This document shows positions 5,792-58,604 of a stretch of DNA of 64,000 nt, one piece after another. The notes beneath the pieces were generated by a model. That model worked only from the letters and a program-made list of their open reading frames with translations. It searched no databases and was not told the DNA's origin. Location: the NCBI GenBank assembly GCA_964036195.1, contig OZ038454.1, forward strand, positions 8,804,001-8,868,000. The letters run 5' to 3'. Position numbers and translations under genes: made by a program. The DNA comes from Sphaerolaimus hirsutus. Its lineage: Eukaryota > Nematoda > Chromadorea > Monhysterida > Sphaerolaimidae. The stretch's first letter is position 1. Each line of letters starts with the position of its first letter.

Positions 5792-6049
5792 AAAGCCTGC
5801 AAACCGGCGGAAATAGAAACAAATAAAGTGTTGTGTACTATTTTGATCGGCCAACTCGCGCCGATCACAAAAAGTCTGTCGAAGCTGGCTAAAGACGCCC
5901 AACAAACGGACAAGTGCGCTCGGATGCAAGCGGCAGCCGGCGGTGGGGCGATGCCGTGCCGCGACTGCGCCAACGTGCACGCGGAGCTCATGTCGCTCAA
6001 GGAGTTCGTCGCGCAGTGGTTCAACATCCTGCTGCACAAGATGGAGCTG
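5792..6049 (+). CDS. Zinc-finger gene, exon 1 (first seen)
   Basis: Open from 5792 to a donor at 6050 in phase 0. It encodes a Cys-containing segment (PCRDCANVH) and a helix-like tail ending HKMEL. The 5' boundary is uncertain. Confidence 0.6.
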
Positions 6050-12768: not shown

Positions 12769-13220
12769 TGTAGTGGGCATGACCCACTGAAAACACTTGG
12801 GGCGGTGGAAATGGACAAACCCTCCCCAAGTGGCAACTGGCCCGCGGCAACTTGCAAGAGCAAAACGCAACTGCCGGGGCCGAATAATTTGCTTTATAAA
12901 ACGTTTGCGATAATTGCGATTGTTTCTCAAATTGACACCGTCGCCATGCGACACGTGGTCGGTCAATTCCCAAAATCACTTCATGTCAACTCCGGCGAGA
13001 GCGATTCAATGAAGGGGAAAAAACACGGAAAATGAATTAGGCTCAGGGCGACTGAACAAAAAGTGTGGAGCCCGCGCTACTTTTATATCACTGCGGAAAC
13101 ATGCGCTGCAACGGTAATGCATTGTCGCGCCGCCCGATTACTGCGGCCGCGCATTGCGTGACCGCTGTAGCGCGGAAATCCTACTTTGCGAAAATAGCGC
13201 CGCGGTGCGCATGCGCAACA
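12769..13220 (-). repeat. Gypsy 3' LTR
   Basis: 452 bp, starting TGTTGCGC and ending CACTACA when read on the minus strand. Apparently identical to the 5' LTR. Confidence 0.93.
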
Positions 13221-13231
13221 CCCCCCCCCAA
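13221..13231 (-). other. Gypsy polypurine tract
   Basis: On the minus strand TTGGGGGGGGG lies directly before the 3' LTR, the position of the plus-strand primer. Confidence 0.7.
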
Positions 13232-13637
13232 GCCGCGGGAGGGGCTCGAAAAGGAAGACAAAAACAAAAGAAATTCTAACCGATGAAATCCCTACTACAG
13301 ACTAGGGTCGCGATCTGTGAAATTAAACGAACTGAAATTGGGGTAATAAATAAATAAATATGTTAGCTTAGGATTAGCGTTAAAATGTACAGATAACTCC
13401 GGTATTTCTACAAATAATTCATCCGAAAAACCCGTAAAAAAGTGGAAAAAAATGAACCCGTATGAGTAAAAGAAAAAATCCGCGTCCTACTCGTATTGAC
13501 AGATAAATACCCGTAAAATGTGAATTTAACTTTGAAAATCATTCCCTTCCTACGCCGAAAATTGGTCGAAATGTCGCCGCGCAGGAAATATAACAAATGA
13601 AAATGTAAAAACCGGGTACAAACGTCACTTTCTCTCT

Positions 13638-16600
13638 TTATTTCTTGCTCGCCGTGTTTGGGCGTTTCTTGAGGCTCGTGGTTTGCACGCGACGTGGCGG
13701 CGTAACTCCTTCTGTGCTAGCGTCAAGCGGCGTCGGCGGGCGGTCACGTGGTCTGTCAACGTATATACGTGGCGGCGCCAGCGGTGACAAAAGAGGTGGC
13801 AAGTTGACGAACGGCATTTGGCTGGGCGTGGCGGCTGGTGGGCTGGCCGGGAGCAGGTCTTCGTCGCTGTCGAACTCGTGCGGCGGCGTGGTGGCGGACG
13901 GCGGCATGGCGGTCGGCACCTCGGCGAGCTCTTCGGGTGTGGCTGGCCGGACACGGATCAGGCCGAAATCATTCTTGCGGCCGGCGAGGCACTGCGGAAT
14001 TGCATTGTCGGGCGGCAATTCACAACCTTGGACTTGCGCGAGCTGCCGCTGGGTGCGGAGCCATTCGGACGTGATGCCGTCGGCTAGCTCCTTCAGCTCG
14101 GCTAACTGCTCGGACAGCGCGCGGCACTTTGACTCGGCGGCGGCGGCGCGGTTGTTGGCGGCCTGCAGTTGCTGCGCGGCCGCGTGCAGGTCGGCCCGCC
14201 TCGCTTCGACTTGCCCGCGCAAGTCGTTGCGCTCCACGCGCAACGCGTTCTCTGCCGTCAGGGACCAGCGTAGCAGTGGGAGCGCCTCATGCGGCCAGAC
14301 CTTGAGGCGCTCCATGCTCTGACTCAGCAGCGTGACCTGTTCCTGCAGCGTGGTGACCTTGGCGGATGCTGAAAGTTTGGTGCCCACGTTGTATGTTTTC
14401 CCGGCTGTTTTGGCATGCTCAAATAGCGAAGTTGTCTCACCAGATAGTGGGACTTTTCTGGGTGCCGTCGGTGCTACGTGGCCCGCTTCCGCACACAACT
14501 GCACGCTCGTTTTTTCTCCATGCGTCGGCGTCGGCAGGAGGGTTCTGTTGCCGCCGACTGCGTGGTGCGTGTGTGCGATTGTTCTATTGTTATTGTGTGG
14601 AACGCCCTCTTTAGATGTTTTACCTCTTTCAGTGTTCGTCGCCGCGGCCGCCGCCGTGCGGTTGGCCGATTGCGAGCGGGGCGTCCGGATTCCGTTGCGC
14701 GGGGGTTCTGTGGTGTGCAAGTGTGATTTACGCATGTTTTGGCACCTGGCCAAAGTTGCCGTCGACGTACCCTTAGACGGTCGCTGCGGTCCGCTGTTGT
14801 GCCGCGGTACCCTTGGCTTCACGGGGGTTGTCCTGCCGCTCTGGCGCGAAGATTGTCGCTGCACGTCCGAGCGTGACCGCCGCTCGTTTTCGGTGTTGTC
14901 AGCGGCGTAGCCCAGCGCTGCCGCCGTGCGATTGGCGGCCGGTGCGCCTGGGTGCGCCTGCGTCAACAGAGTTGTTGCCGCCTCGTACAGTGCGTGTGTG
15001 TGTCTAATCCCTGGACAAACCCCGGAACTGACCCAAGTGATCGGCACACGCTTCCTTGGTGGTTCTTGGGCCGGCGGCGTCGATTGTCCATGCTTGTTGC
15101 CACTTGTGCGCGTTTCTGCCATTTTGCTGTTTGTGCTGCTGCTGTTGCTGTGCCCGGTGGGTGCCATTTTTGTTGGATTGCCGCGTTCGTCCGTGGAAAG
15201 TGTGAATTTTTCTTTTTTTATGTCGTTTGCCAGTACGAGTGTGGCTATTGGTAATCTTTGGATACGGTCCCCCGTATCCACTAATGCAATTGATTTATCC
15301 AGGCCTATGACCGTGTGTGGGCCGGATCGTATGGGGCGTGTTTTCTGTTCTACCGCCATGCCCCAGCGGATTTCGGCGTATACTGTGTCGCCGATTTTGA
15401 TATTTGAATTTTTGTTTTTGTCGTGTGCATTTTTGTATCGGTCTTGGGCGTTGCGAAGCTGTCGCTGTGCCTGTTGCCAGAGGCCTTGTAGGTGTCCAGG
15501 CCGCTGTGCCGCGGTTGGGATGCGCGTTGCTAGTGCTCTTATGGCTGTTTGTAATCTTGTGTTGTGGCTTGGTGGGCTGCGGACAGCCTCTTCACTGTTG
15601 TCGTTGATGTTTTCGGGACTATTTGTCCCTGTCAAAATTGATGGCATATAGCCAAAAAGTAATTCGAAGGGTGCGTGTGCTATGTCGCGATTGTATGCCG
15701 TGTTCATTCGAAGCGTGATTTCTGGCAGCGCTGCTGGCCAGTCCCTTGATTTGCCATTGCTTTCTGTCCATTGTCGAGTTAGCTGTTCCACGCTTCTGAT
15801 CGCCCGTTCGGCTAGTCCGTTGGATTGCGAATGGTACGGTGTTGTTGTGCGCAGCCTGAATCCCCATTTCTCAGCCAGCTCGGTGACGTCTTTGTTGACG
15901 AATTCCGTGCCATTGTCGCTGACGATTTCTTGCGGCGGCCCAAACAGATGTATCACCGATTTTTCTATTGCTTTTGTTACTGCGTTCCCCGTTAACTGTC
16001 GCAGTGGTGCCAGTGCGACTGCTCTTGTTAGGTAATCTACCATTACAAGCAGGTGTTTATGTCCTTTGAATTCGGGCATTGGTGTCGTATCAACTGCCAT
16101 TTTTTGCCATGGTCTGGTTCCCGGGTCTACTGGGAATAATGGGCTAAAGCACGTTTTTTGGCCGTCTTTTGTAATTTTGCAAATGTGGCATTCTTTGATT
16201 AGTTCGGCTGCATCTTGTCGCATGCGTGGCCATGCTGCCACCCGGCCTGCGTGTTGTACTGTTCTCTCCACGCCTCCATGAGTGCCGATACGCCCAGCGT
16301 GCGCTCGTTGCAAGACCCATTTGCGCAGGTGCTGTGGGGCTAGTGGTTGCAGTCCGTGTGGGCCCTGGTACAGTACGATGCCGTTGTCCATCGCATATTG
16401 TGCTCGGCTGATTGTTCCTTCTTTGAGTTTTTTCGTAATTGCCTGGCACTCTGCGTCTTTGGCTTGTTCTTTTTGCCAGTCTACTGGTGCCTGTGCCGAT
16501 CTGGCCATGTGTGGGCATAATTCTTGCAGTGGGACTCGGATGCTCTCGCTGGCCCTCTGGAATGCTGCTGAGTCAACGTCGTCGATTGGGTTGCGACTGA

Positions 16601-19600
16601 GGGCATCTGCTACCACATTCTGTTCTCCTGGGCAGTATTCTATTGTCAGGTCTCTGAGTGACAATCGCATGGCCCATCTGTGTGTCCAACGTTCGATCTT
16701 CCCGTGAGCAGGTTTTATTAGCGCATTCACTAACGCTTTGTGATCTGTGCGCAGGACGACTTTCTGCCCGTCGATGTAATCGCCTAGTCGGTCCAGTGCC
16801 CATGTGCATGCCAGGGCCTCTTTTTCAATGACTGACCAGTTTTTGTGCGTTGTTGGTAGTTTTTTGGATACAAACGCGATCGGGCGCAGTTGGTTCGGGT
16901 TGGTTTCACTTTGTTGCATGAGCACGGCTCCCAGCCCGATGTCGCACGCGTCCGTGTACAAGTAGTATATTTGTGACCTGTTTGGGTGTGCCAGGACTGG
17001 CGCCTTGCTCAATTTCTGTTTCAACGCTTCGTATGCCTCTTTGGCTTCTGTTGTCCATTCCTCGTGTGGTGGGATTGGGTCGCTGCCATTCACCCTGTAT
17101 TTCCCTTTGGCCATCTCATTCAGTGGTGCTGCTAGCCGGTGGAACCCCGGGATGTGTTGGCTAAAATAGCCTGCCTTTCCTAGAAATGTCTTGATTGCTT
17201 GTTTTGTGGTCGGTGTTGCCATTTCCAGTATTGCTGCGATGTTACTCCGCTTCGGCTCGATGCCCTCTTTGCTGAGCTCGAAGCCCAGAAACTTGACTTT
17301 GGCACAGAAAAAGTGGCATTTTTCTGGTTTTAGCCGGATTCCCGCCCATTGCAGCCTGCTAAACAGTTGGACTAGATGTTGCAGGTGCTCTTCTGGGTTG
17401 TTGCTGGCTACTAGCACGTCGTCGATGTACGCGAAAAATGCTGGTCTTTCTGGCTCCTGGTTGAGCCCTGCCAGCACGCAGTCCATGAGTCTCTGGAAAC
17501 TTGCCCCCGCGTTTTTTAGACCTAGTGGCATGCGCGTGTAGCTATACTGTCCTCTGCTGCAGACGAAGGACACCATGTCTCTTGTGGCTGGGTCTGATAT
17601 TGTGACATTGTAGTATCCAAAACTGGCGTCCATGGTGGAGAACAAGGCTCTTCCACTCATCTGCTGGAACATATCCGAAATTCGTGGCAGGGGGTATGCG
17701 TCTCTGACTGTGACGTCATTTAGCTTTCTGAAATCCAGGCAGAGTCGATAGTCGGTCTTGCCCTTTGGTACTATTACTAGTGGAAATGCCCATGGCGATG
17801 CGGATGGCACGATTAATTTCTTTTTTAGCATTTCCTCCACTGTGCGCCAGACAAATGCGCGCTTTGGTGGTGTCTCGAACCTGGCTGCGCATTTGATGGG
17901 TTCTGTTCCTGGGATTAGCTCAATTTTGTGTTCCGTGACTTGCGTCTCGCCGATGTCATACTCGGTGAGGCTGAACAGTCCCATTTGCCTCGCCAGCAGG
18001 TTTTTAAACCTGTCCTTCAATTCTGCCGGTAGCGCGTCTTGCGTTTCTGCTGGTAGGCGGGGCCAGACTTGGTCGATGTGGTCCTGCTGCTCCGGTGTGA
18101 GTTCCGCCCATTTGCAGTCTTCATGTGTCACTGGTGGCGGTTGTGGCAGGTGCAGTGCCCCTTGTACCGTTGCCTGTTCTTCTGCCATCAGCACGTGCGC
18201 TGTGGTGAATATTTCTGCAATCTTTGTGTATGCTGGTATGAACTGCTCCATTCCCGTTTTGTTCGTTATGCGGAGCGGGAAACTTGGTTCCTCCATCCAG
18301 TTTTTTCCCGGGTGCAACGCTGTGTTGCACACAATCCCTGGGATTGACTCTGTCAGGTGTCCATTCTCATCTCGCGAGTACGGGTCGAGTGCGTATGCTA
18401 ACTTCTCGCCACTTTCTGTGTACTCCGGGAGTTGCATGTTTTTATCCACCATGACCCTGATTTGGTGCTGGCTGCCTGCTGGCACTACTTCGTCTTGCGT
18501 TGTTCGCACGTCTGCAGTTCTGAGCGTTGTCCCGTCTGTTTCTGTGCGAAATATGCCTGGTCCTTGTGCATATTCACCGGATAGGCGCTCCAGTTCGTGG
18601 TGCGCCGTCTGCACGATTTGCAACTTTCCCCAGATGGCCGCCCGGCCGATTAGTAGCGGGTCTGCCGGTGGTAAGAACTCCATCAGTTTCACGACTGCTG
18701 GCAGTGTGTCCGCGTGCCATTTGCCATCTGGTGTTTGGTGCTTTACTGCCATATCGTACATGCGCAGCCACTCGCTCTTAATTATGTTTCCTGACGTGCG
18801 GATGTGGCTGCCAGTATATGGGCCAAATTTTGCCCGTTCTGTCTGTCTGTCCAGTCCCGCTTTGGTCCATAACTGCTCTAGCGCTGTGTCCTCAATGAAC
18901 AGCCCTATGTTGCACCCTGTGTCAATGTGCCCTGTGATTGGTATGCCCTGAAATGTAATTGTTGCCATTGGATCTGGTGCCCCTGCTGTATAGTTGCTTG
19001 TGGCTTCTTTTGTGCTTGCGACCGTTGGGACCCAATCGTCTATGTCGGCCCATTCGTCTTGATCGCTGTCCTCGTCCCAGTCACCGTCTTCTTCCTGGGC
19101 AGTGTAGCGGCTGGCTAGCATCTTGGGGGGTGCTGTGGCTTTCATTTGAATGTTCATTTCTTTGCACCTTTGCTCCATTCTTCGTTTTGCGTCTTCATCT
19201 GACTTTCCCTGGCGCTGCATGTTTTCTTTGATTCTTTGTGCCAGCTCTGGTTTGTATGCTGGTGATTCTGGATCCACGTAACATTGCTGTGAATCATGGG
19301 CCATTGGGTTTCGATGGAGGTAGAAAGTGCACCATGGACCCTTGTGGTCACGTGGGTCGAGGGTGGCCCTGGCGGCGGCTTCCGGAGCTGTTTTGGTGCT
19401 CTGGACTTTTGGTTCTGTCTGCCAGGTGTTGTCAACGCTGCGGCGCTCTGGTTGCCAGTTCCTGTTGCCCCCGTATCGTTGGCGTGGTCTTTGACTTTGC
19501 TCCTCTTTGCGTTGTGCGCGCGTTCGTTCGATGTCTAGTCGGGCAGCTTCCATTTTCGCCACTGCCATGTCCAGTGTGCAACATTTTTCTTGCCAGCGTT

Positions 19601-20828
19601 CTTTCCACATGTACCAGCACGATGCTGGGAGCAGCTTCGGGACTTCAATGAATAATTTGTTTCCGATCATGCGTTCTCGTTCGTTGTCAGACATGGTCTC
19701 GCTGATGTGGTAAAACGCTGTGCACAGGCGCGTGTGCAATTCGATTACCGATTCTCCTGCCGCCGCTTTGAGGTTGTACCAGTCTGCAACCGAGTGTACT
19801 TGGTGGTCCAGCCTGTACATGCCAATTAGTTTATCCACGACATATAGAATGTCGTGGCGGCGCGCGATTCGGATGCTCATGTATCTGCTTTGTGCCACTC
19901 CTGTTAGGCACTGCATGAACACGTTGTTCCAGAACAGCTGTTGCATGCTATCCGGGACGCCCAGCGATTGTTGCATGACCATGTGCAGCCAAAATTTGAA
20001 TGGTCCCGTGTTGCTGTTTGGCTCTCCGCTGAACTTTATTTGCTTGTTGGCTGCTGATGCTACGTGTCCTATGCTCATCCGGTCTTGTGGCAGCGTGAGT
20101 GTGCTCAGTCTGGGTAATCCATCATTGGGTGACAGCACGTATTGCTCCATGTACTGGATCAATCTTTTCATGATAGGACCGCTGTTGAGTGTTTCCAGTC
20201 GGTCGTCGGTGCTCCATTTCCATGGATCTCCGCTGGGACTTTGTGGGGCGGCGTAATTTGACGTGTTTGGTGCGTCGGTTGAGCTGCTCGCTTGTTTCAG
20301 GGCCAAATCGTCGATGCGCGCGTGGATGTCTCTGTTTTCTTGTTGATTCTGGTGCAACTGCAGTTGTACTTGCTGGATCATCGTGGCCAGCACTGCCAGG
20401 TCTCCCTGTGGCTGTGACGCCTCTGGTTTTGCCGCTTGGATGCGCGATCTGAATGGTCGGACATTTGGTCGGATGACTGGCGTGCTGTCTAGATCGAATT
20501 CGTCACTGTAGGCTGCTTCTGGGTCCTCCATTTCTATTTTGTCATCTTTCCTGGTGCTGAAGTACTTTTCTGCCATGCGCAGTACTTTGCGTGCTAACGT
20601 TTCTGTGCTATCTTTCCATGGTGAGTTAAACTTTGGCCATTTGTCCTTGTCCTTGGTGATGGTGTCATCTCGGTACGCGTTCAACGCGTTCCCGGTGTTG
20701 AGCAGGGCCCATCTGTCTGGCGTTGCTGCCCATTCCTCGATTTTCTCTGTGAGCTCGCGCTCCGTGAAATGTACGCGGCGTTTCTGCGCCGCTGTCGCCG
20801 CCGCTGCTGGCGCGTCGGTGTCTGCCAT
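13638..20828 (-). CDS. Gypsy Gag-Pol polyprotein with long C-terminal extension
   Basis: 2,396 codons in a single frame with no gag/pol shift. In order: a Gag-like region (1 to about 600) without a canonical CCHC knuckle; an aspartic protease with HIDTGC (active DTG at about 636-638); a reverse transcriptase with FAYIDD (YIDD at about 1134-1137); an RNase H starting at YTDACD (about 1291) and containing LRTDHKALV and ADALSR; an integrase with a zinc-binding end at CHICK (about 1547), VSDNGTEF (second Asp about 1638) and a downstream SNGLAERA (Glu). After the integrase come about 600 residues: a Thr/Ser/Arg-rich stretch, a long heptad-like coiled coil at about 2155-2265, and a Pro-rich tail ending KRPNTASKK. 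All catalytic motifs look intact, so it may be competent for transposition. The tail is not part of a standard Gypsy Pol. Confidence 0.95.
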   Translation of the reverse strand: MADTDAPAAAATAAQKRRVHFTERELTEKIEEWAATPDRWALLNTGNALNAYRDDTITKDKDKWPKFNSPWKDSTETLARKVLRMAEKYFSTRKDDKIEMEDPEAAYSDEFDLDSTPVIRPNVRPFRSRIQAAKPEASQPQGDLAVLATMIQQVQLQLHQNQQENRDIHARIDDLALKQASSSTDAPNTSNYAAPQSPSGDPWKWSTDDRLETLNSGPIMKRLIQYMEQYVLSPNDGLPRLSTLTLPQDRMSIGHVASAANKQIKFSGEPNSNTGPFKFWLHMVMQQSLGVPDSMQQLFWNNVFMQCLTGVAQSRYMSIRIARRHDILYVVDKLIGMYRLDHQVHSVADWYNLKAAAGESVIELHTRLCTAFYHISETMSDNERERMIGNKLFIEVPKLLPASCWYMWKERWQEKCCTLDMAVAKMEAARLDIERTRAQRKEEQSQRPRQRYGGNRNWQPERRSVDNTWQTEPKVQSTKTAPEAAARATLDPRDHKGPWCTFYLHRNPMAHDSQQCYVDPESPAYKPELAQRIKENMQRQGKSDEDAKRRMEQRCKEMNIQMKATAPPKMLASRYTAQEEDGDWDEDSDQDEWADIDDWVPTVASTKEATSNYTAGAPDPMATITFQGIPITGHIDTGCNIGLFIEDTALEQLWTKAGLDRQTERAKFGPYTGSHIRTSGNIIKSEWLRMYDMAVKHQTPDGKWHADTLPAVVKLMEFLPPADPLLIGRAAIWGKLQIVQTAHHELERLSGEYAQGPGIFRTETDGTTLRTADVRTTQDEVVPAGSQHQIRVMVDKNMQLPEYTESGEKLAYALDPYSRDENGHLTESIPGIVCNTALHPGKNWMEEPSFPLRITNKTGMEQFIPAYTKIAEIFTTAHVLMAEEQATVQGALHLPQPPPVTHEDCKWAELTPEQQDHIDQVWPRLPAETQDALPAELKDRFKNLLARQMGLFSLTEYDIGETQVTEHKIELIPGTEPIKCAARFETPPKRAFVWRTVEEMLKKKLIVPSASPWAFPLVIVPKGKTDYRLCLDFRKLNDVTVRDAYPLPRISDMFQQMSGRALFSTMDASFGYYNVTISDPATRDMVSFVCSRGQYSYTRMPLGLKNAGASFQRLMDCVLAGLNQEPERPAFFAYIDDVLVASNNPEEHLQHLVQLFSRLQWAGIRLKPEKCHFFCAKVKFLGFELSKEGIEPKRSNIAAILEMATPTTKQAIKTFLGKAGYFSQHIPGFHRLAAPLNEMAKGKYRVNGSDPIPPHEEWTTEAKEAYEALKQKLSKAPVLAHPNRSQIYYLYTDACDIGLGAVLMQQSETNPNQLRPIAFVSKKLPTTHKNWSVIEKEALACTWALDRLGDYIDGQKVVLRTDHKALVNALIKPAHGKIERWTHRWAMRLSLRDLTIEYCPGEQNVVADALSRNPIDDVDSAAFQRASESIRVPLQELCPHMARSAQAPVDWQKEQAKDAECQAITKKLKEGTISRAQYAMDNGIVLYQGPHGLQPLAPQHLRKWVLQRAHAGRIGTHGGVERTVQHAGRVAAWPRMRQDAAELIKECHICKITKDGQKTCFSPLFPVDPGTRPWQKMAVDTTPMPEFKGHKHLLVMVDYLTRAVALAPLRQLTGNAVTKAIEKSVIHLFGPPQEIVSDNGTEFVNKDVTELAEKWGFRLRTTTPYHSQSNGLAERAIRSVEQLTRQWTESNGKSRDWPAALPEITLRMNTAYNRDIAHAPFELLFGYMPSILTGTNSPENINDNSEEAVRSPPSHNTRLQTAIRALATRIPTAAQRPGHLQGLWQQAQRQLRNAQDRYKNAHDKNKNSNIKIGDTVYAEIRWGMAVEQKTRPIRSGPHTVIGLDKSIALVDTGDRIQRLPIATLVLANDIKKEKFTLSTDERGNPTKMAPTGHSNSSSTNSKMAETRTSGNKHGQSTPPAQEPPRKRVPITWVSSGVCPGIRHTHALYEAATTLLTQAHPGAPAANRTAAALGYAADNTENERRSRSDVQRQSSRQSGRTTPVKPRVPRHNSGPQRPSKGTSTATLARCQNMRKSHLHTTEPPRNGIRTPRSQSANRTAAAAATNTERGKTSKEGVPHNNNRTIAHTHHAVGGNRTLLPTPTHGEKTSVQLCAEAGHVAPTAPRKVPLSGETTSLFEHAKTAGKTYNVGTKLSASAKVTTLQEQVTLLSQSMERLKVWPHEALPLLRWSLTAENALRVERNDLRGQVEARRADLHAAAQQLQAANNRAAAAESKCRALSEQLAELKELADGITSEWLRTQRQLAQVQGCELPPDNAIPQCLAGRKNDFGLIRVRPATPEELAEVPTAMPPSATTPPHEFDSDEDLLPASPPAATPSQMPFVNLPPLLSPLAPPRIYVDRPRDRPPTPLDASTEGVTPPRRVQTTSLKKRPNTASKK

Positions 20829-21032
20829 CCTGGCGTTCCTGCTGGTGTTGCTGCTCAGCTGTTGGTGCCAAGTTGTCGGCGTTACTGCTTGTCGCCGGTG
20901 CGGTTGATGACACTCTTGTCACGCTCCGTTTGTTGCTGATGTGGTGCTGCTCGGGCGGCCGGCGTCACTGCTTATCGCCTTTTTGTCGCGGCCCGCTCGG
21001 GTGGCAATACATGCGTTTGCTTTCGTTTTATG

Positions 21033-21050
21033 TATATTGTGTGGTCACCA
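21033..21050 (-). other. Gypsy primer-binding site
   Basis: On the minus strand TGGTGACCACACAATATA begins immediately after the 5' LTR. TGG complements the CCA end of a tRNA primer; I did not assign the tRNA. Confidence 0.65.
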
Positions 21051-21502
21051 TGTAGTGGGCATGACCCACTGAAAACACTTGGGGCGGTGGAAATGGACAA
21101 ACCCTCCCCAAGTGGCAACTGGCCCGCGGCAACTTGCAAGAGCAAAACGCAACTGCCGGGGCCGAATAATTTGCTTTATAAAACGTTTGCGATAATTGCG
21201 ATTGTTTCTCAAATTGACACCGTCGCCATGCGACACGTGGTCGGTCAATTCCCAAAATCACTTCATGTCAACTCCGGCGAGAGCGATTCAATGAAGGGGA
21301 AAAAACACGGAAAATGAATTAGGCTCAGGGCGACTGAACAAAAAGTGTGGAGCCCGCGCTACTTTTATATCACTGCGGAAACATGCGCTGCAACGGTAAT
21401 GCATTGTCGCGCCGCCCGATTACTGCGGCCGCGCATTGCGTGACCGCTGTAGCGCGGAAATCCTACTTTGCGAAAATAGCGCCGCGGTGCGCATGCGCAA
21501 CA
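21051..21502 (-). repeat. Gypsy 5' LTR
   Basis: 452 bp, the same as the 3' LTR. It should hold the promoter that drives transcription towards lower coordinates. Confidence 0.93.
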
Positions 21503-24154: not shown

Positions 24155-24811
24155 TGCAGTTAACAGACAATCGTGAAAACCACCTAGGTAATTGATATCA
24201 CAATATCACTTTCACAACCGAACCTTCGTTTCGATCATATTTAGTTAGTACACCCTATGAGATGATCTCTAAAATTTTCTAACGCGTGATGGAAAAGAAA
24301 TGTTCACAATGAAATATTTTAACGAAAAAGCCGGCACTTGAAACTGTCACAAGTAATTTTTGGAGCGTGCTATGTTGCATAGCCAGCTGCCACAAGTGGT
24401 GCATAAAGCCGAAAAAAGTATCATACAACACCGTATAAGATCTAAAATACCATTAAATATACAATAAAACTTATAAATGTTATAAATATAAAACTGTTAA
24501 CTGTTATAAATCTAAAAATAACCAAAGCAAACCCAAACGCAATCACAATTAACGATGACAAACATTCTATAAAAAGGGGTAAAAATTTTTTTAAGTGTTT
24601 TTTCTAAAATGATCTAAAAAAAGTTTTCTAAATTTTAGAATTTTTCTAGAAAAAAATGCGTTTTTACCTAGTGTTGAAACAAAAATGTGAGTTTTTGTTT
24701 GCCATTGTTAGTCACCATCTACAAGTAGGTAAAAAGTGTAGAAAAAAGTCATACAGAACCCGAAGTAGCATCCGACAGGAGATAGGTAGATAAATTTCAC
24801 TTTATAGACAC
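24155..24811. other. AT-rich intergenic DNA
   Basis: I see no gene or repeat boundary here. It follows the 3' end of the BAIAP3-like gene. Confidence 0.4.
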
Positions 24812-27800
24812 TTAAACATACCTTATATTAGCAATATGCCTCAAAAATTCACACGCGTCTTTATTCTCCTTCCTAGTAGCCAAAACGTTCAACAAATCCG
24901 AGTCGCCTCCATCGCTGGGATGAATCAAGGCCAAATTGAACTGTCGCAGCGCAGCGGCAGACGCGCCGTTGTTTGAAGGTCTGCGGCCGGCGTCATTTGT
25001 GTCATTCTCCTGCGGGCAGTCCCAGACCCTGTAAAATGTCAAATGTCATGCAAAGTGTCAAGAGTCATCTAAAATGCGCAGGTGCCAAGCCCAGACCCTG
25101 TAAAATGACCTGCAAAATGTCAAATGTCATGCAGTGTCAAAAGTCATGTAAAATGGCCCGCAAAATGGCAACCGAGTTGCCATTTTGCGGGGCATTTTAC
25201 ATGACGTTTGACACTTTGCATAACATTTGACATTTTGCAGGACATTTTACAGGATCCGGGACTACCCCCTGGAAAATGGCAAACGCACGTTTGCCATTTT
25301 TCAGGGCATTTTACGTGACTTTTGACACTTGTCATGACATTTGACATTTTACAGGGTCTGGGACTGGCACCTGGTCACACGCGAAGCCGGGCACGTCGCG
25401 CAGGTCCAGGTAGGCCTCGCCGGCGAAGTCGTTGGTGCGCAGATAGTCGTGATCCATGACTACGAAGTGAAGGCAGGCCACCGGCGGCAGGGCGCCCTCG
25501 GACACGTGGCTGCGGGTGTGTGTGGTAGAGTCCACTGACTGCACCATATCCACTGACTACCATATCCTACCTGAATAAAAAACAAAAAAATATTATTTTC
25601 TCCCACAACATTACATTTTTCTCACCACCGATGAATTAGGTGCATTTTTCCTTTTGTGTAGTGCTCAGTCGCATTGTTCTTTGCGACATTTATCGTATTT
25701 GCTCGGATAAATCCTCGAGCGTTACTTCTTTTCGTGTGTATGGTTTCGATGAAGTTGCTATCACAAACGGATTTACTAAATCGAAAACTATTTTTAGAAA
25801 GGTTCACTGGCAGCGTAAAATACCTTTAAAACAGCTGTGTAGATACTTAGTAAACAGATACTGTTGACTACACTACATTGTTTGCATTAAGTTATTCAGA
25901 CTAGTCACACTTCCATCCCTCCATGCGTATTTTGAGTGCAACGTATCATTGCGCCTGGACAGAGATGTTTTTTTGACATATATTTTTTTTCCCACTTGGT
26001 TTGCATGGGGGAAATATTCAAAGAGACACTATTTTGACAATTTTGTCCCGATTTTTGGAGCGGTAGACACTTGCAACATTTTCGTTGAAATGACATGTAC
26101 TTTCTCAGTTAACAAATATCACAGAAATGCTTGATTGTACCTACACATTTGCTGCCGTAAAAATGAGTGAAACTCGTGGTTTTGAACGCATTTGAGTGTA
26201 CAAGAATGATTTGTCTGTAATCAATTTATGAATTTTCTCAATTTTTCGGAATTTCCACAGAGAACTAGTGTGTAGGGCAATTTGTAATCACTGATGAAAT
26301 TTACAATGCCCAGTCAACTCTGGGTGCAGTTACAGCTTGAGAGTTGAGACAACCTCAAATACATCAAATACAGATTTATATCAAAACTAACAATTCAAAG
26401 GTCTCCTCAAAAACAGGGTTCAAGGTTTTATAGGCGATCTTAGTCTTGACAACCGGATTTTCCGGAAAGTGAACCTTTGGTACCAACTCCACTATGACGA
26501 AAGGGTCGCTCAGGCCATTTGTGTCCAGCGCGAGAATTCTTTTCGCCGATAAAACTGCAGGGGGGTTGAGCGTTTGAGGGGTTTGTACAAAAACGGGTGG
26601 TCGGATATAAATATGTATTTATCTTTTTGGTTCATTTTTATTATTTGCAATCGATACATTTACTGTATTTTCTTGAATAATTCCCGCCTTGATTTATTCC
26701 CACGCTTAAATTATTCCTCCTGTTAGACGAGTGAGGAAAAATAATTCCTCCCCTTGGATAATTCCCCCCTTTAGGAAGGTATATGATCAATTTGTGTCAA
26801 ATTTGAACAAAAATGGAATGTTATCTTGTTTATAAGAAATGTGATCGTGAAATGAGTTGATTAAACATGCATGATAAACATAAAACATTTTAACGACAAA
26901 ATAATTCCCCTTGAATAATTCCTTCCCTTAAAGATTTCCCCCCTGAAAAAAGTCTGAAGAAAAAATAATTTCCCAAGCAAACTATTCAAACAAATACAGT
27001 ATTTGTTCCAAATAAACAAATGCGACAAATAAATGAATAAATAATTATGAATCAAACAAAGAAAAGCATTTGCCCCACAAAATACATTACAACAAACCAT
27101 CCACAACGAGCAGGTCAGCCTGCGGATTATAGTACGCGCGCACATTCAATATACCATAACGGCAGTCGGACACGTTCTCCTGCGCCATGCAGCTCGCATT
27201 AATGACGTCACAATTAAAAAATGAAATTGAGACTGAGTCGCAAAACACCGACCTGCAGCTGCACATACCTCCTATAGTACATGTGTATCAGATCTACCGT
27301 ACTTCTACCGTAAGACTGCAATATAGTGACCAGTCTTTGTCGCTCGGCCGTACTTTCCAAAGCTTCCTGTCTGAGCCCGACGCCGCCGGCGTTGAAAAAC
27401 TCATCGATAATATCGACCGCCTCCTCCAGACGCGTGTAGAACTCGGACTCTTGCTGAATAGAAAGAAGAATTGGCATTGTGCCAAGCCAACGGTTATCTG
27501 GCGATCTGGGGGCAGTCCCAGACACTGTAAAGTATCAAGGACCTGTAAGATGTCCTACAACTGTGATACATCTTAGGTTCAAAGGTAATAGTTGGATACA
27601 AAAACAGTAGGTTTGGATACGATACAACAAGATTTGGATACAGATGACACTTTACAGGGTATTTTACTTGACATTTGACACTTTACAGGGTCTTTTACAT
27701 GATACCTGACAGTTTACAGGGACTTTTACATGACACATGACATTTTACAGGGTCTTTTACAGGGTCTTTTACAGGGTCTGGGACTGGCATCTGGTAAAAT

Positions 27801-30800
27801 GCAACTGAAAAACTTACACCCTGATTTTCGTCGACGGTCTTTTGAATGAGCGACATGATCGTTTTGTATAGGCAGGTTAGGTAGCGCACAAAGTTTCGGT
27901 GCAGCAAACGTTTGTGCACGGCGGTCATGTCGGTGTCGAGCTTGTCGATCAGGCGACGCCCGGCCTGTGGCAATTGTGGAATTTGAGAATTGTGTTCAAT
28001 AGTTTTTTATTGACGCTGCGTTCCAATATTTATTATCTACAGTGTCTACAGTCTACAATTAACCCCTCGGGAATTTTTTCGATGGAGTAATTTGAGTTCG
28101 AGGGGAGTTAAATTTGTCATCAAATTATTTTGCTAAAATAAGCGATGAATTAAGTTCATCTTACCATTTTATGCTAGATATTGATAGTACATTACAAATA
28201 CTTACAATTTCGAGTATTGGTTTTCAGTGCATTTTAGCAGCAGGATTAAAATATGCAGAAACCTGGCAATAAAAAACATTTTAAATATTGAAAATTCAAA
28301 TGGTACAGGAATCATACCTCTTCAGCTGGGCACGACGAGGGTGAAAAAGCCAAATGGAAGACCAATTTCGCATACTCCGCCTGCTTGCGACGCATGAGTC
28401 GCTCCAGCGCCAGGTCGATGTGGCCAGCCACGCAAGATCGACAACTGTCGACCACGTGCTCCACTGTCGACTGCCATTGAGCGGCCCGTGACGCGTCCTG
28501 AACGGATGGGGGGGGGGTTGATCAAGGGAGAGGGTTGATTGTGGTTACGTGGAGACGTGTAGTTTAGATTGAAGTAAGCGTTAAAAAGTAGCGATGCATG
28601 TCTATGGCCAGTTGTGCACAGATGCTGAGCGGCGGCAACACCAGGGGCATTCCCGCACCCTGTACTGTAAAGTGTCATGTAGAGTATCAAATGTCATGCA
28701 AAATGTAATAGAAATTTATCAAATGTTATGCAAAATGTCAATATTACAGTAATTAAATTTGTTTTTATTTTGACATTTGAAACTTGTCATAGCACTTTAC
28801 AGGGAGCGGGACTGCCACCTGAGGCAGAGGCACAAAATCAGGTAGACACAAAGTAGAATCCGGAAAACCTAAAAATATTTTAAAGTGTAAGCGAATTGCT
28901 TAACTAAACAAATGGACAACCAGTGAACGTTTTTGTATATGAAAATGTGCCATCGTTGGTTAGACACCTTGCCATGATTTGCAAAACAAAAACAAAAAAA
29001 CGACACCAAACAAAAGTTAAAGCAAAAACGCTGAACCAAGTTGAACCCGCAGCGCGCAGAATGCTGTGGAATACCATTTCCGGTGCCTTTTTCCAAAACT
29101 TCCATTGCGGCGGTCTCTCAAGTTTAGAAGAGTGATATTTCTGCAGTGCACAAAGACGACAGTGGCTGGATGAGATTTTCTCATGGAGGGTAAATCTACC
29201 CGAAAAATGGGGCGGTGAGTAAAACTTACGCTGGGCTGGGGGCAAATTAAATGGCTACCGTAAATCCTCGATTAAGACCCCAAGGAGTTATTTTTCGTCA
29301 TAGTTTTTGAATGGGGTATTATTTAAGGGGGAGTTATTCGAGGGGGAGTTATTCGAGGGGGAATAATTTTTTCCTCATTATCGCTTTATGTATCTGTTGT
29401 CGCTGCCGTAGGCTAATATTCTTTTATAATTTTCATTTCACACACTACACTGCATTTGCAGCCCTGGCGTAGCATTATTTGGTCTGTCTGGGTTAATTAA
29501 TTGTTTTTTTTTAAAAATTGATCCGGTATTTTTCCACCCATCACAGAGGGGGGAGTTTTTCAAGTGTGGGAGTTATTCAAGGGGGGTATGTTTCCCCCAC
29601 TCGGTCTACAGCGGGAGTTATTATACGGAAGAGTTATTCAAGGGGGGCTTATTCGAGGATATACGGCATTCCTTTCGTGTAAAGATCCACGTGTGGGCAC
29701 AAACATATCCGTGTTGACTGTAAAAAAACATGACGCACATGTAAGCACACACATATTTGCTACACAGAACGAAGTGAAAACACGCACACAACCACAAAAC
29801 GCAGATAGTGTAGCAGGAATTATACATTTCACCCATTCAAAGTGCACCTACTTGAAGGTCGGCCAATCTGGCGGCGATTTCATCCAGCCGCAAGCGATCG
29901 GACATGTCGGAAGCGACGCGGCGCGCCTGCTCCGCATCGTTGATAGTCACGAACAGCTGAGGTTGTAATCAGTTGATTATGGTAGGTATGGATGTGAGCG
30001 AATTAAAAGGCACGTGAGTGGAAGCTGTGATGGAATTGGCGCTGATTATAATGTACCGTAAATATTTCCTCCCAGCCCGGGGGGTTTATTTTTTCAGAGG
30101 GCAAATATTGAGCGGGGGGGGGTTCATCGAGGGAGGGATAATCCGAGTGTTACTTCAATACAAATTTATCATGAAATTCTTGCCACTCACCTGATTCAAA
30201 TGGGCCTCCGTGAACTTCTGCCCATCATCATAGAACCCAGTGTGCTCCAAAAACGCGAACACTTTCTCCGTATACGTCTCAATGCCTTTGCACACGAGCT
30301 GCATCATTTTCTCCGTGTGAGTGGCGTGAGCAATCGGCTCGCTAAATTCAAGACGCTCCCAGAAATCGACCGATTGTTTCAGCGTGAAGCACACGTCCAC
30401 GTAGCTGGTCGACTGGCGCACGTCCGTGCTCGACGATTCGATCTGAATTTGGTGGGTATTTTATGGAATGGAATGTGGTTTAGAAATGGTAGTGGACAGT
30501 GATGGGATGGAGTAGTGGGAGTGGGGATTATTTTTTGGCTTTTTCTGTGCACTTTTAATATTCCTTTTTTTTAATTTTTTTTTTGGAATATTAAAAGTGC
30601 ACAGAAAAAGCCAAAAAATAATCCACACTCCCACTACTGATGCTTAGACCAAGTTTGACATTTTACATGGCTTTAAATACTTCGCATGACATTTGACATT
30701 TTACACTGTCTGGGAGTGCCACCAGGTGAGAAATGACATGTTTCAGATGACCTTATATTAGATGAGACTAGTGATGGAAAAGCGCCAGAAAAAAGGGCGC

Positions 30801-33800
30801 CAGGCGCCAATGGCGCCATGGCGCCATTCGGAAACTGGGCGCCAAGCGCCAAGGGCGCCACAGAAAAAGGGCGCCAAGCGCCAAGGGCGCCATGGCGCCA
30901 TTCGGAAAGTGGGCGCCAGGCGCCAAGGGCGCCACGGAAAGAGGGCGCCAAGCGCCAAGGGCGCCATGGCGCCAATTGAAAAGAAGGGCGCCAGGCGCCA
31001 ATGGCGCCAGAATAAAAAAGCGCGTAGAATACCCTGCGTGTGCTAAAAATGCATCTCCAGCACTGTAGTGCACACATTCACTTCTTTATTCATGTTCTCC
31101 AGGATGTAATCAGCAAAAATGAGACTAGCAACAAACTTTTGTGCAAAAACCGTACTCACACGTGATATTCACTTCAAACACTTTGAAAATTCTCATTCGA
31201 CAAAACAATGAATGCACATCAAATAGATTTTCCAATATATGTTTTCTTGAAGTGGACGACAACGGAATTCCGATAATTTTAATTCGTCGATTTACGAGTT
31301 TGCGAGTTCACCGGTCTATCGTGCTCAGCTTCTGAACTGTTACACGCATCTGATAAAAATTGGATGAAACATATACATCCACTCACACCACTTTGTCTAT
31401 TTTCCAGTGAATTTTGATCATTCACCGACCCGTTTTTTTTCATTTTTTTTTCATTCACGCAGCACTCACCTTGAAACCATGCTGGCGCCATTTTGGCGCC
31501 CTTTTAGGGCAGGGCGCCAGGCGCCAAGGGCGCCACGGAGAAAGGGCGCCAAGCGCCAAGGGCGCCATGGCGCCTTTCAGAAAGTGGGCGCCAGGCGCCA
31601 AGGGCGCCACAGAAAAAAGGCGCCAAGCGCCAATGGCGCCATGGCGCGGCGTCCTTTGGCGCCCTCAAATGGCGCCAGCGCCATGGCGCCATTCCATCAC
31701 TAGATGAGACGTATCAAATAGTCTGTCAAGTGGCAAGTACATTTCCAATCCAATGTGAACGTTTGAATAAAGAATTGAAAATTTGTTTGGCATTAATAAC
31801 TCTACAGAGCACTAGGTATGGTGTGAATTCCCCACTGAATCGTGTATTCCCACCATTTTTCCTCCCACTGGCAAAAAAGCTGAGAAGACACAAAAAACCT
31901 ACGATTTTGTCCAGCTCGCAAGCAAGATCGATACGGGACGTCAGGTAAACTTTGGCAATTTCCAGCCACAATTTGGCAGCTTTATCGAACACGTGATTTA
32001 TCGCGCGCCAAGTTCTCCTGTTGCGAGTCCTGCGGTTGTGAAATACCAAAATTTACCATTTTTATATTAAAAATTAACATTTGAAAAGAAAAAACGCACT
32101 GCGATGAGCATCTTAATCTGTGTCTAGCGAATTCGGCGTAAGTCACTTGCATCTCGAAAATGGGCACGAGTGTTTCCACGTGGGCCAGGTCTTTGGCGTC
32201 CACATTGGTGGCGCTCAACGCTTTCTGCGGCGGTAAAAATGTCATATTCAATGTGTGTAAAAGTGATTAAATGTGTAAAAATGTGCTTAAAAATGTAAAA
32301 ATTACCAGCTTTTTCTTTTCCCATGTTTCAGCTATCGATGTGGAACAAGCTTCGGCGTCGAGCTGAAATTGTAGTGAAAAGAATTGTTATTTAATCGTTA
32401 ACCCTCTGCTTACCCTAGAGTATTTATTCTCCAGTCAGATCGCTTTGAAGGGGGAGTTTTTCAAGGGATAACCCAGTTTTCATTGAACCAGTAAATTACT
32501 GAAATTTCTCGCAAAAATCAGAGAGAAATTCAATATCGGTCATCGAAAAGGGGGGTAAAAAAAAAATCCACTATGTAAAAGACAAACACAACAAAAACAG
32601 ACCAACTGATCAAACTCCATGTAGACTGCATCAAAATAGTCGATTTCCAGAACCCTGGAAAGGGCGTCAAACAATCAGTACAATCAATCAATTTTTGACA
32701 CAAAAACCACTCAAACACCACATCAAAAAAGTTAAAACGCACTGAGCAAATGCTTCCACGCAAACGGTAACTGCGGCTTCACAGGCGGCGTTCAAAGCGA
32801 CCAGTAAATCAGCCAAACCCGTGTATGAATCGTCGCTGTCAGACTGAGACGGTTTGAGTTGACGTTTAAATTGTTGAGTTGACACATTCAGTTGACGTTG
32901 AGGAGAAATAAATGTGCCTGGATTCTGGGTTTATGCATGTTTATGCATTCAGATTTATGCTTTTATCGCTCAAGATTAAGCTGCTCCCAGATTAAATGTT
33001 AAACTATTTATATCGCGAACTTTAACACCTATAATTGGCAGTCATACTTTTTTGAAAATTGGAAGCTTGAAACAGGAGCGTTCAGTTTTGTTCCCTCGAA
33101 TGTTTCATTTTAGCATGGTCAAGGGGACGGTCAAAGGTTTGATAGGACAAAAAAAAGAAAAAAGTCAAAATATACTCACCCCCTTGTCCTTGTCTATCTT
33201 TTCTTTCGCTCGGTAATAATACGTGTCGGCGCTCCGCTGAAAAATAAAATTAACAGATATAACATCCAATTAGATAAAATTAATTGAATCGCTGTGCGCG
33301 GCGACAGAAAAAGCTACAGATAAGCCGTCTCAGATATAGAAATGAAAGCTTAAGCGAAGAGAGGATTGAAAGGTAATTACACTTTTAGAAGAAACAGCCC
33401 ACCAATGTAAAATAATTAAACGTAAATACAACCCACAGGTATGAGTGACTTCATCTCGTCGTTCAGCGGCACTTGATAAGGCAGACATCTCGCCATTAAC
33501 TCGCTCGTGTGCAGTTCTGACAGTGTTCTGTAGGAAACGCGTGTTTGATTTGCAGGGATTGAGTCTTTGGCACTGCAAGCATTAGTTAAATGCCATTTAA
33601 CAAAAAAAGTTAGTAAACTCATAAATCAACTTTGAATGACATTTGAGTTTACTGGAATTGGGTGTTCGTCAATTACAGTTGACGGAGTGTAAAAATAAAT
33701 AGTAAACTGAAATAAGTTCAATGATGATTTACCTATGTTTACTAATTTTTGAAATTTCATTAGTAGGTAGACCGATGTGCGCTAGCATATTGGCACTGGC

Positions 33801-36800: not shown

Positions 36801-39800
36801 AAAATGCTAAAAATAGGTAAATAAGCACATATATAGCCAAAATAGCCGAAAACAGGCAATAATGAACATGTACTAACGATTTTGGAGGGTAAAATCTATA
36901 AAAATGCATGAAGAGTAGCAATTTTGAGCAAAAATTGGGCAAAATTCCTCAAAAATCGCTCCGGATAGGTAGATAGCTGGGCGATTTGCGGGGGGGGTGT
37001 AACTGTAACACCCCCCCCCCCTAGGAGACCCCTGGCCCATGCCCAGCACACGCATACCTAAATACTCAACCGGCTAAATAGCTGCGCGCAGTTGCAATCC
37101 CCTCTAATCAGCGTGTCTTACACTGTATATATTTATGTACATAAAAATCTCCTTACTGTAAGTATGCTTCGCTACTCGCGCGAGCGTTAAGACCACTGGC
37201 GTGAGCTTGCTATACACGCTTAGATTTGAGATCAACAAGGTATACTCCGCGGACCGCAGGCTATGCATTTTTCTGAAGGAAACACTGCATCGTGACGTCA
37301 TCCTTAAGAAAATCAAAATTGTCCCAAAAAAATAATAATTTTTCAGCCATGAAACGCATGTTGGTTGTAGTCAGTTCAGCATTTTTCTTTTTAGAATATT
37401 TTGGTCTCTTGTAAAAGTGCATACTGTATTTCTTCTAATAGAAGAGCATTATTTAATTTTTGTAATGATTTTACCTGCCATTCTATTGGAAGCTACAATT
37501 CTATTTTTTCACCAATTTTTTCCACAGATTTTCATTTGAACATCGCCTTATTTTTTATGAAGCTTGAGCAATATTTTGATATCATAGCATCAATTCGAAA
37601 TTTAACACCTATTTGAATGCTTTGAATGTTTACACCAGCCATTTTCAATCTATTTTAGTGTTTTGCACACTCCCAACAAAATTTCTACCTGCCATTCAAT
37701 TGGAGGTGTTGTTCTATTGGAGGTATGACATTCTATTAAAAGAAATGTGGTACATAAGTATCCTGCCCTTGCGTTATCCGCTAAGACATAAGTAATTTAG
37801 TGCGCACACTTTGCGGTCAGCCGAGTATAGTTAAGTCCGAATCCGCACCGGGAAGTTCAATTGCCAATCCCCCTAAACGCAGCTTAATTCCGCGCCGCCA
37901 GGCCGCATGGCGGCGAGTTAATCGGCTTCACGGGAGCATGGACGACGCCGACGCCCGGCCCATGACCGCGCCACCTGTCGACATGTATCGCTTGCACGTG
38001 AGTTCAATTGACCAAGGTGTTGACATTGAAGGCGCTATCGCCCGACAGGTGAACTCGGTGAGTGGAATTAGATGGGTTTAGGTAGGTGGAGCGACCGTTA
38101 TTGGAAGGTGAAAAGTGAGGTTGGATAGAAAGTGTGATGATTTTTGCGCCGGTTTGAACGAGACGAGAGTCAAAAAGACCCTGGTTTAGATTCGTTTCTA
38201 TAAAAAGACGATTGAGAATATCAACGGCGAACCAACGAAGCTCGAACAGTGCAAAATAGTCGAATGGCACGCGCGCACAAAATGCCACATACCGTATTAC
38301 TTCCAATATAAACTGTATTTTAGAAACCTTATATTGATTTCGTCAACTTTTTACTGTACCTTATATTAGAGGGTACCTTTAATTGTGTCAGGTCTACAAA
38401 TACAAGTGGAGACATATTTAATTGTCTCGGTGTCCTTCGGCACCAATTTAATGGTTGTCCGCCATGTTTGGTCACTGATTTAACGATTTTACACGTTTTG
38501 GCACGCAGCAAGCTGCCCCTCATATCAGAGGTATACTTTCTATTGGAGATATGCCTTATAAATATTTATTTTGTCAAATTCAAGAAAGCCACCAGTTAGG
38601 GTACTTTATTTTACAGGTAATACGGTAATTTGACTCGCAGCGTCAGCCGTTAGTGCTGGTGCCGCTCAAGTCGCCCGAGCAGAGCGGCGCGGCAAATCAC
38701 ACGGGCGCCGCACCGCCCGCGCAGCTGAGCAACGGACGCGGGCGCCAGGTAAAAAATGACACATAGTGAAAAAGGGTTGTAAAACCACTAGGGTTTGCGC
38801 TTGATTTTTTTAATATTTTTTTTTAATAAAAGGGTGGAAACTGATTTTAATTTAAAAAAATAAAAAGGAAAAATTAATGGTAGACTTGCACGAGGTATTT
38901 AGCAATTTTTTTGCACGCAAGCACGCAATTTCTCATACACTTTACCATAGGTGGTGTTTTCATGGGTTTTGGGGCATTTTTAGGGTAAAAGCTTCCATTG
39001 ATTCATGTTACCGAGTAATAAAAAGCCGTGCTATGCTAGTGTCGTATATAATATGCAGTCAATGTACTCCCACATACTTCTAGAGTGTGTAACATCACTG
39101 TCAATGTATAAGCCGTCTCTTACAACCATATTTAAGCACTATTCCATGCTGAACTTCACTTGAAGTAACGAACATTCAACAAAAGGCGATATACGTAATA
39201 AGTCGACATAAAAATGGATATTTTTGAAAGAAATAACTGCTTATAATGCTATCCCATGACTCCACAGTCATAATATGACCACAATAGACATAACAATACA
39301 TTGTCTGACACTTAACATATACATATTTTTTCTCTATAACCCCATTTTGAACGATTTTTAAAAAATCTGATTTTAATTTAAAAAAATCAATTTAAAAAAA
39401 GTTGATAAAAAAATCAAGGCGTTTAAAAAAAGTTGATTTTTTCCAACCCTAAAAACCATTGCTGTTTTTCGATGTGTCAACCTAGTGTCAAGCGTTATGA
39501 ACATGCCAGTAGATATTCGAATCGCCTTGTCAAAAGCCTCTCAGGAAAATTGGCATGGCACTTGTAAATCGCCAGGGTGTGGATCTGAACCCTCCGATCT
39601 GTGGCAACTCTGAGAGCATGTGAAACGCCACGCAAAGTGTCAAAAGTTTTATAAAATGTGCCGTAAAATGTCAATTTTTTAAATGGACGTTTGCTATTTT
39701 ACATGGCATTTTACACGACATTTTATATTTTACAAGACATTTCACATGCTCTCCGATCTGCCACGCGCGCGCAGGACCCGCCGTACCCCGCTTCGGCGCA

Positions 39801-57230: not shown

Positions 57231-57488
57231 GACTAATTAACTAATTGGTCACTCTAATTAAGTCGTCTCGCGCGAAATTTCATTGGAAATTGAGTTTCAC
57301 AGCCTGAGTCACACGCACGAGGTTACGGTAACACGGTTTTGGACGCAAAATCGTTAGTAGCGCGTGCATATTTACTTACGATTTTACAAGTACAAGTCAC
57401 AAGTAACGAAATATTTATTTTATTATTTTATTTCGTTCACAGCTAGCTACCACTTTGCTAATAAGCAATAAATCGATCGACATTTGCC

Positions 57489-58604
57489 ATGGAAGAACGT
57501 CTACGCGTTCAGAGAGGCGCCCCAGCCGCCGCAGCTATGCCTTTGAGCAACGTAGATGAGTCAGACACAACTCATCCGTTGACTCAACATAGCCGGGAGT
57601 TGACTGGAGTGCGCAACGGTGTGCTACGATTCACAACCAAACCGATTCCTAAAATCATCAAAGACGAGTCACAACCCGCCGCCGTAAACTTACGCGCGGC
57701 GGAGGAAGTACTAGAACTACTTCAAGCCTACGTCTACCAAGCTGAGCTGAAACGTTCGGACCTGTCCTCAGCTATGGACAGATTCACATCTATTGTCCAG
57801 GATCACATCACAAGCTTGGACAGAGACCAAGACGGAGTGGCCGAGGAAATAAAGAGCGCCAACGCCAAACTGGAGCGCGCGCTCTACTCGGGCTCGAACA
57901 ATGCGATGATGCTCATGGATGAGCTGGAATCGAGGATGGCGACCGCACAAGCGCAAATCAAATCCGCAGAAAGGTTGATACTTTCTTTGAAAGGTCAGTC
58001 AACTGTTGATTTAACTACTCAACCCCCTTCACAACCACCCTATAACAATGTCAACATGGGAAGTAGTTCTCAACCTTCACAACCGGAAACTTTGTTAAAG
58101 TTACCAAAAATCGAGCTTGCTAAATATAACGGCGATCCGTTAGAATGGGCAGCTTGGTGGGAAATTTTTCGAGCTCAAATTCACGACCGAGCTAATTTGT
58201 CAAATGGTATGAAATATACATACCTTAAGCTCAGCCTTATCGGTCCAGCAGCGGAACTGCTGGCCGGATTAAAAGGTGATGGTCGAGATTACATCACAGC
58301 AGTCACCATGTTAAAGTCAAACTTTGGTGAAACGCATCGGGTACAAGCAGCCCTTTGGGATAAATTGTATTCACTCGAAAAGCCTTCATCAAGAGGAGAC
58401 TCCCTCACAAATTTCACACGAACCCTTTTGTCAACTCTCAATCAACTAAAAGAAAGAGGTGAAAGTGTCAATTCTGGTGCCGTGTTAAGAATAATTCGTG
58501 GTTATCTCCCCGATAATATTGTTCTTGCCGTCACAGAAGAACACCGGAATTCGATGCGCACTGCTGCAACCGACGACACAGAACTCAGTCGTCAGGTTTG
58601 TTGA
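57489..58604 (+). CDS. BEL Gag (N-terminal part)
   Basis: 371 codons from ATG 57489. The N-terminal half has a helical segment; residues about 205-330 are the retrotransposon Gag region typical of BEL/Pao (LPKIELAKYNGDPLEWAAWW). The frame stops at TGA (58602-58604), but the Gag sequence continues in the +1 frame (RFVDALTTIARARLDAM), so a frameshift is needed or has occurred. Confidence 0.88.
   Translation: MEERLRVQRGAPAAAAMPLSNVDESDTTHPLTQHSRELTGVRNGVLRFTTKPIPKIIKDESQPAAVNLRAAEEVLELLQAYVYQAELKRSDLSSAMDRFTSIVQDHITSLDRDQDGVAEEIKSANAKLERALYSGSNNAMMLMDELESRMATAQAQIKSAERLILSLKGQSTVDLTTQPPSQPPYNNVNMGSSSQPSQPETLLKLPKIELAKYNGDPLEWAAWWEIFRAQIHDRANLSNGMKYTYLKLSLIGPAAELLAGLKGDGRDYITAVTMLKSNFGETHRVQAALWDKLYSLEKPSSRGDSLTNFTRTLLSTLNQLKERGESVNSGAVLRIIRGYLPDNIVLAVTEEHRNSMRTAATDDTELSRQVC

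Follow-up and report, generated by a model that had tools for sequence, protein, structure and literature searches.

Within the 64,000-nt window (the whole stretch of DNA analysed, with positions counted from its first letter), the 361 bases at 25010-25370 on the minus strand hold nothing other than a palindromic element and a second, inverted copy that splits it. This stretch is probably an intron of an UNC13D/BAIAP3-like gene, formed by a CWG-type MITE that works as an introner in this animal. In the minus-strand reading the exon ends in ...TGTGACCAG and is followed by GTGCCAGTCCCAGACCCTGTAAAATG from 25370; on the 3' side GGGTCTGGGACTGCCCGCAG runs up to 25010 and is followed by GAGAATGAC. 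The pattern of reading frames supports an intron: if the element is retained a stop appears at its 13th codon, and if it is removed the frame is open, remaining so for 65 codons downstream. An intron made only of an element with a nested inverted copy had been proposed in the initial annotation, and this make-up of the stretch is borne out here; the arms had been placed at 25010-25080 and 25273-25370, correct within two bases (Table 1). The nested copy in opposite orientation is confirmed as well, but the accompanying claim of repeated insertion is not, only one such event being seen.

Table 1. Coordinates of the element copies, the putative introns and the adjoining exons. Copies are named in the text by their start.
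Feature	Start	End	Strand	CWG left/right	Remarks
Element-made intron	25010	25370	-		phase 0, CAG|GTGCCAGTCCC...GGGACTGCCCGCAG|GAG; UNC13D/BAIAP3-like gene; predicted splicing
Outer element (copy 25010), 5' arm	25272	25370	-	CAG/CAG (whole copy)	
Outer element, 3' arm	25010	25078	-		
Inner nested copy	25079	25271	+	CAG/CTG	opposite orientation; flanks counted in
Left CAG, target copy	25371	25373	-		last exon codon, Q
Right CAG, target copy	25010	25012	-		would act as 3' splice site
Upstream exon	25371	25538	-		C2B domain, ...FACDQ; 5' end by hand reading
Downstream exon	24822	25009	-		ENDTND...HIANI, open in frame; ends at donor-like AAG|GTATGT, score 7.6
Second exact element-intron (copy starts at 6047)	6050	6243	+	CTG/CAG	CTG|GTGCCAATTCC...GGGACTGCCCTCAG|GTC, phase 0
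Third coding-sequence copy, same gene as 6050	6776	6967	+	CAG/CTG	5' tip reads CAG|GTGCC exactly; no AG on the right, where the flank is CTG|GCG
Copy in ordinary intron, gene of 6050/6776 (hand reading)	7762	7977	-	CTG/CAG	
Diverged copy outside recognised gene	22376	22533	-		too diverged at an end
Expanded copy, ordinary UNC13D-like intron	27506	27793	-	CAG/CAG	
Copy, ordinary UNC13D-like intron (hand reading)	28641	28821	-	CAG/CTG	pair holds if the right end is taken one base shorter than that of the other copies
Half copy, ordinary UNC13D-like intron	30657	30725	-	CTG/	left end only
Copy just upstream of first UNC13D-like exon read	35315	35492	-		both ends lack a plain CWG
Diverged copy just upstream of globin coding exon	39599	39757	+		too diverged at an end
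Copy in phase-2 intron of globin gene	40085	40250	-	TAG/CTG	

The same family forms a second predicted whole intron, at 6050-6243 on the plus strand, in an unrelated gene. With its insert removed, the outer copy aligns to 6046-6243 at 150 of 166 ungapped columns with a score of 111.5, and none of 300 dinucleotide-shuffled versions of the outer copy scored above 19.5; this was the alignment that the initial annotation had set as its test, and its contention that the likeness is not due to chance stands. Its claim of one family making whole introns in two unrelated genes on opposite strands is supported, the elements at 25010-25370 and 6050-6243 being flush with both predicted junctions. The outer copy without insert matches its own reverse at 143 of 159 positions, and its arms match the inner copy at 144 of 162 columns; the inner copy in turn matches 6046-6243 at 164 of 193 positions and 6776-6972 at 170 of 191.

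The minus-strand gene, initially called BAIAP3-like from its C2B domain, does carry a C2B exon upstream of the element but is better called UNC13D (Munc13-4)/BAIAP3-like, the searches made here not separating the two names. Among solved structures, UNC13D is the top match for the C2B part (E 6.2e-25), and hand-joined exons matched the Pfam C2 family (1.2e-15) and MUN (4.3e-4, 19.8 bits, under the Pfam cut-off of 24.2); a protein search with the UNC13D-like sequence returned 0 of 7998 scored candidates at E<=0.001. C2B homology extends up to the junction on the upstream side of 25010-25370, and in a solved-structure search around this stretch UNC13D matches the C2B part until three residues past the junction (E 0.0024), beyond which the downstream exon gave no convincing homologue among solved structures. 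GC content is 0.487 in the downstream open frame, against 0.375 just after it and 0.272 at 24400-24800. As for the plus-strand gene, our hand reading would join the part holding the 6047 and 6776 elements to later C2H2 zinc-finger exons; its first exons matched no Pfam family.

Twelve copies of the family were found in the window by a profile built on seven copies, themselves included in the 12, with the weak profile matches at 48638-48666 (E 0.0099) and 31710-31833 (E 0.016) excluded; since the element is nearly palindromic, BLAST within the window matches it in both orientations. Three copies break into the coding sequence of two genes and a fourth is nested; by hand reading, a further six are inside ordinary introns, and the remaining two lie elsewhere. 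Because six copies read as being inside ordinary introns, we regard the family not as an intron-only element but as a mobile one that on occasion gives rise to introns. Well-kept copies measure ~165-197 bases and others up to 288. Self-complementarity, measured in eight copies, is 84-90% in five and 67-78% in three more diverged ones. The family is thus short, bears inverted repeats and has no coding capacity, as MITEs do. No transposase, such as a PHIS DDE transposase with its Myb/SANT partner, was noticed by eye among the 80 ORFs listed for the window, three of which were scanned against Pfam, and an exact search of genome_contigs and viral_contigs with the element end CAGTCCCNGACCCTGTAAAATG found nothing, as expected for an animal element.

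Two copies next to exons call for comment. In the first UNC13D-like exon as read here, the open frame runs back into the right end of the 35315 copy, whose ...CCCTAAG might be the 3' splice site of that exon, further AGs lying close by; its left end lacks GT, and we count it as intronic with doubt. We also considered 39599-39757 as a possible element-intron before the globin gene; the joins tried by eye gave a stop or no clear donor. That globin gene, at 39770-41090 (+), matches Pfam Globin at 3e-17 with hand-joined exons, has a long N-terminal extension and carries a family copy in its phase-2 intron; it would lie inside the UNC13D-like gene if a C2A-like frame at 48810-49226 (-), read by eye, belongs there.

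By exact hand reading, eight of the 12 copies have CAG or CTG immediately before the left end; with a CWG chance of 0.0295 per position in the window, this many would arise by chance with probability 2.6e-10, before correction for offset choice and the common descent of the copies. At least nine of 12 left ends begin with GTG, most of them with GTGCC or GTGGC, and the right end, on its own strand, starts with GGG in six of nine readable copies and otherwise with AGG or CGG. Target duplications of 4-6 bases, tried by eye on the flanks, were dropped. Seven copies have CWG on both sides, identical in the middle base in two and unlike in five. Plain duplication would not give unlike copies in five of seven, and later mutation would yield five or more with p 0.0002 at 10% per pair or 0.005 at 20%, a calculation on small numbers and on seven copies picked for having CWG at both ends. 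The landing site of the inner copy can be guessed from the opposite arm of the outer element, which reads CCATTTTTCAGGGCATTTTAC when reversed; that arm has a single CWG at the place where the inner copy now has CAG to one side and CTG to the other.

The scoring matrix for splice signals was derived from 15 hand-read ordinary introns in the UNC13D-like gene, which were themselves scored leave-one-out. The 3' splice sites of the two exact element-introns scored 10.1 and 9.7, compared with 3.2-8.6 in the ordinary introns, and in both cases the predicted site is the CWG copy. Their 5' splice sites scored 2.8 and 2.3 against an ordinary range of 2.6-10.2, the second falling below all 15; the donor GTGCCA is without the usual G at +5. 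Better donors lie inside 25010-25370, at 25288 (6.5) and 25109 (5.8). The three coding-sequence insertions, in two genes, are all in phase 0, and the 6050 and 6776 copies, like the outer one, contain a stop when read unspliced (by eye). The 6776 copy has no exact 3' site, its right CWG being CTG; the first frame-keeping AG of 13 listed lies at 7006 and is weak (2.9), and splicing to it would cost 13 codons net, 14 being replaced by one. With the element ignored, the frame is open across this site (VDQ LAHLFPSLALTFGQ QNVD...), and because of this we take the 6776 copy as an insertion into an exon.

For both exact introns a near-complete hairpin is predicted. As RNA, the 361-base stretch has a predicted energy of -252.2 kcal/mol, against -98.7 (sd 5.5) in 100 shuffles (z -28), and 6050-6243 has -117.8 against -46.2 (sd 4.0) in 200 shuffles (z -18). 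Two details of the predicted 361-base fold speak against help from the hairpin: the 25370 donor has its first three bases paired, whereas the start of the 25288 donor lies in a hairpin loop of 4 bases. Concealment of the 25288 donor by the hairpin, an earlier proposal, was rejected on account of this loop, and the fold result slightly lowered our confidence in the introner reading.

We propose that a non-autonomous, almost fully palindromic DNA transposon would insert at CWG, leaving a CWG on each side, and that after landing in the coding sequence of the UNC13D/BAIAP3-like gene it would be removed as an intron. The left tip GTGCC after CAG (or CTG) would supply the 5' splice site (CAG|GTGCC) and the CAG behind the right tip the 3' splice site, so that joining of the exons would return a single CAG and the reading frame. 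A second copy would later have landed in the middle of this one, in reverse orientation and again at a CWG; because both splice sites lie at the tips, the intron would merely have been lengthened. The palindrome could fold into a hairpin in the RNA that brings the intron ends together, and may compensate for the weak 5' site. Counting against this reading are the weak 5' splice sites and the better donors inside the stretch, the downstream exon without a homologue among solved structures, the first exons of the 6050 gene without a Pfam match, the unlike CWG pairs, and the fact that most copies in the window are not exact introns.

A possible objection is that the element landed in an older intron whose remainder was lost until only the element was left. 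We judge this improbable, though six of the 12 copies do lie in ordinary introns by hand reading, and one of these occupies the globin intron whose place and phase agree with those of the ancient B12.2 intron. Against the objection, both tips are flush in two genes, as is the 5' tip of the third coding copy, whereas none of the six intronic copies was seen flush at both ends (35315 maybe at its 3' end); the coincidence of the 3' splice site with the CWG copy in both exact cases likewise argues against it.

A second objection, to which we give slightly less credence still, is that there is no intron at all, the genes having been disrupted by the insertions and the window holding broken alleles or pseudogenes. 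The weak 5' splice sites would fit this, as would the stop met on read-through inside each of the three coding copies; yet the exons read on either side are open, and copies 6047, 6776, outer and inner already differ from one another by 10-15%, so that long-broken genes should have decayed. That the likeness between the introns reflects chance or simple repeats we consider extremely improbable: the palindrome does hold repeated short motifs such as AAATGTCA, but the alignment score stands far from its 300 shuffles and the match extends to the tips.

The introner reading has clear precedents. In introners as described by Gozashti et al. 2022 (PMC9860276), insertion of a transposon into an exon creates an intron, some families carrying one splice site and taking the other from the target duplication, and 5 to more than 2,000 introns are given per introner family. 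The mark of an introner, likeness reaching both boundaries of whole introns in different genes, was found for 25010-25370 and 6050-6243 at their predicted boundaries. The Chrysochromulina element described in the same survey carries a 5' site and co-opts its 3' site, as ours would; the duplications described there are 4 or 8 bp (3-9 bp quoted for earlier families), whereas here the target is CWG with middle bases often unlike, and the near-complete palindrome also sets our element apart from the families described there (PMC9860276). Introner elements of Amoebophrya, as presented in PMC7789003, carry inverted repeats through which the introns could form hairpins that bring exon ends together, and are bounded by direct repeats of 3-5 nt, to which we liken our CWG copies; they come from a dinoflagellate and were defined among non-canonical introns, in contrast to the GT-AG introns of an animal here. 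For tunicates, too, introner transposons with weak splice sites have been discussed, but with mostly non-canonical sites (AG-A(N) in Fritillaria) in the passages concerned (PMC13326754, PMC7789003), unlike the GT-AG found here. Palindromic MITEs share with our family short length, absence of coding capacity and full-length inverted repeats, but splice sites at the tips are no defining feature of that class.

With its CWG target our family would fit the NuwaI group of the PHIS (PIF/Harbinger-like) superfamily, described as having CWG duplications and inverted ends that usually start with GGG, and found in 16 animal genomes, 'mainly' (abstract) or 'only' (text) in animals (PMC4482050). The right end of our element most often starts with GGG and its left end mostly with GTG, and the passages on NuwaI in that paper do not mention intron making (PMC4482050). 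We name NuwaI as a candidate membership only. Our literature search, which covered few subscription journals and preprints, found no paper linking CWG-targeting NuwaI to introners.

The principle that an element brings its own 5' site and borrows its 3' site from the duplicated target is known; the present case is most likely a new form of it in an animal. Where new introns come from has long been asked, and within animals and land plants the 2022 survey has introners in two groups only, both animal, with copepods named (PMC9860276). The present case would tie the CWG target of a transposon directly to the proto-splice site, a link testable in any genome with CWG-type transposons, and the nested copy offers a model of intron growth with splice sites untouched.

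CAG|G is the classic proto-splice site, and piggyBac pairs with its target without fill-in synthesis. From these we venture a broader suggestion, which we hold only tentatively and think rather doubtful: in animals, any CWG-targeting transposon with a GT tip would make an exact intron when the right copy is CAG, and the unlike middle bases would reflect an old CWG overhang carried along and paired with the new target without fill-in, so that the right middle base, A or T by chance, would decide between exact splicing and harm.

The window holds other repeats as well. An LTR retrotransposon, by look, occupies 12946-21278, with a single long frame at 13638-20918 (-) bearing RT, RNase H and integrase domains, and is bounded by identical 51-base stretches at 12946-12996 and 21228-21278. 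Another retroelement, at 57465-60240 (+), which we take to be BEL/Pao-like, has a DUF1759 frame (4.2e-19) overlapped by a frame with CCHC-like motifs read by eye. In an intron of the UNC13D-like gene, 30780-31080 and 31490-31690 are rich in GGCGCC/TTGGCGC and adjoin 'ttccatcactagt', a word recurring near 34975; these stretches may be another mobile family. Recurrent 'gaataactccccct'- and 'gaattattcaag'-type repeats, apparently intronic, were seen at 29280-29650, 26680-26940 and 47000-47450.
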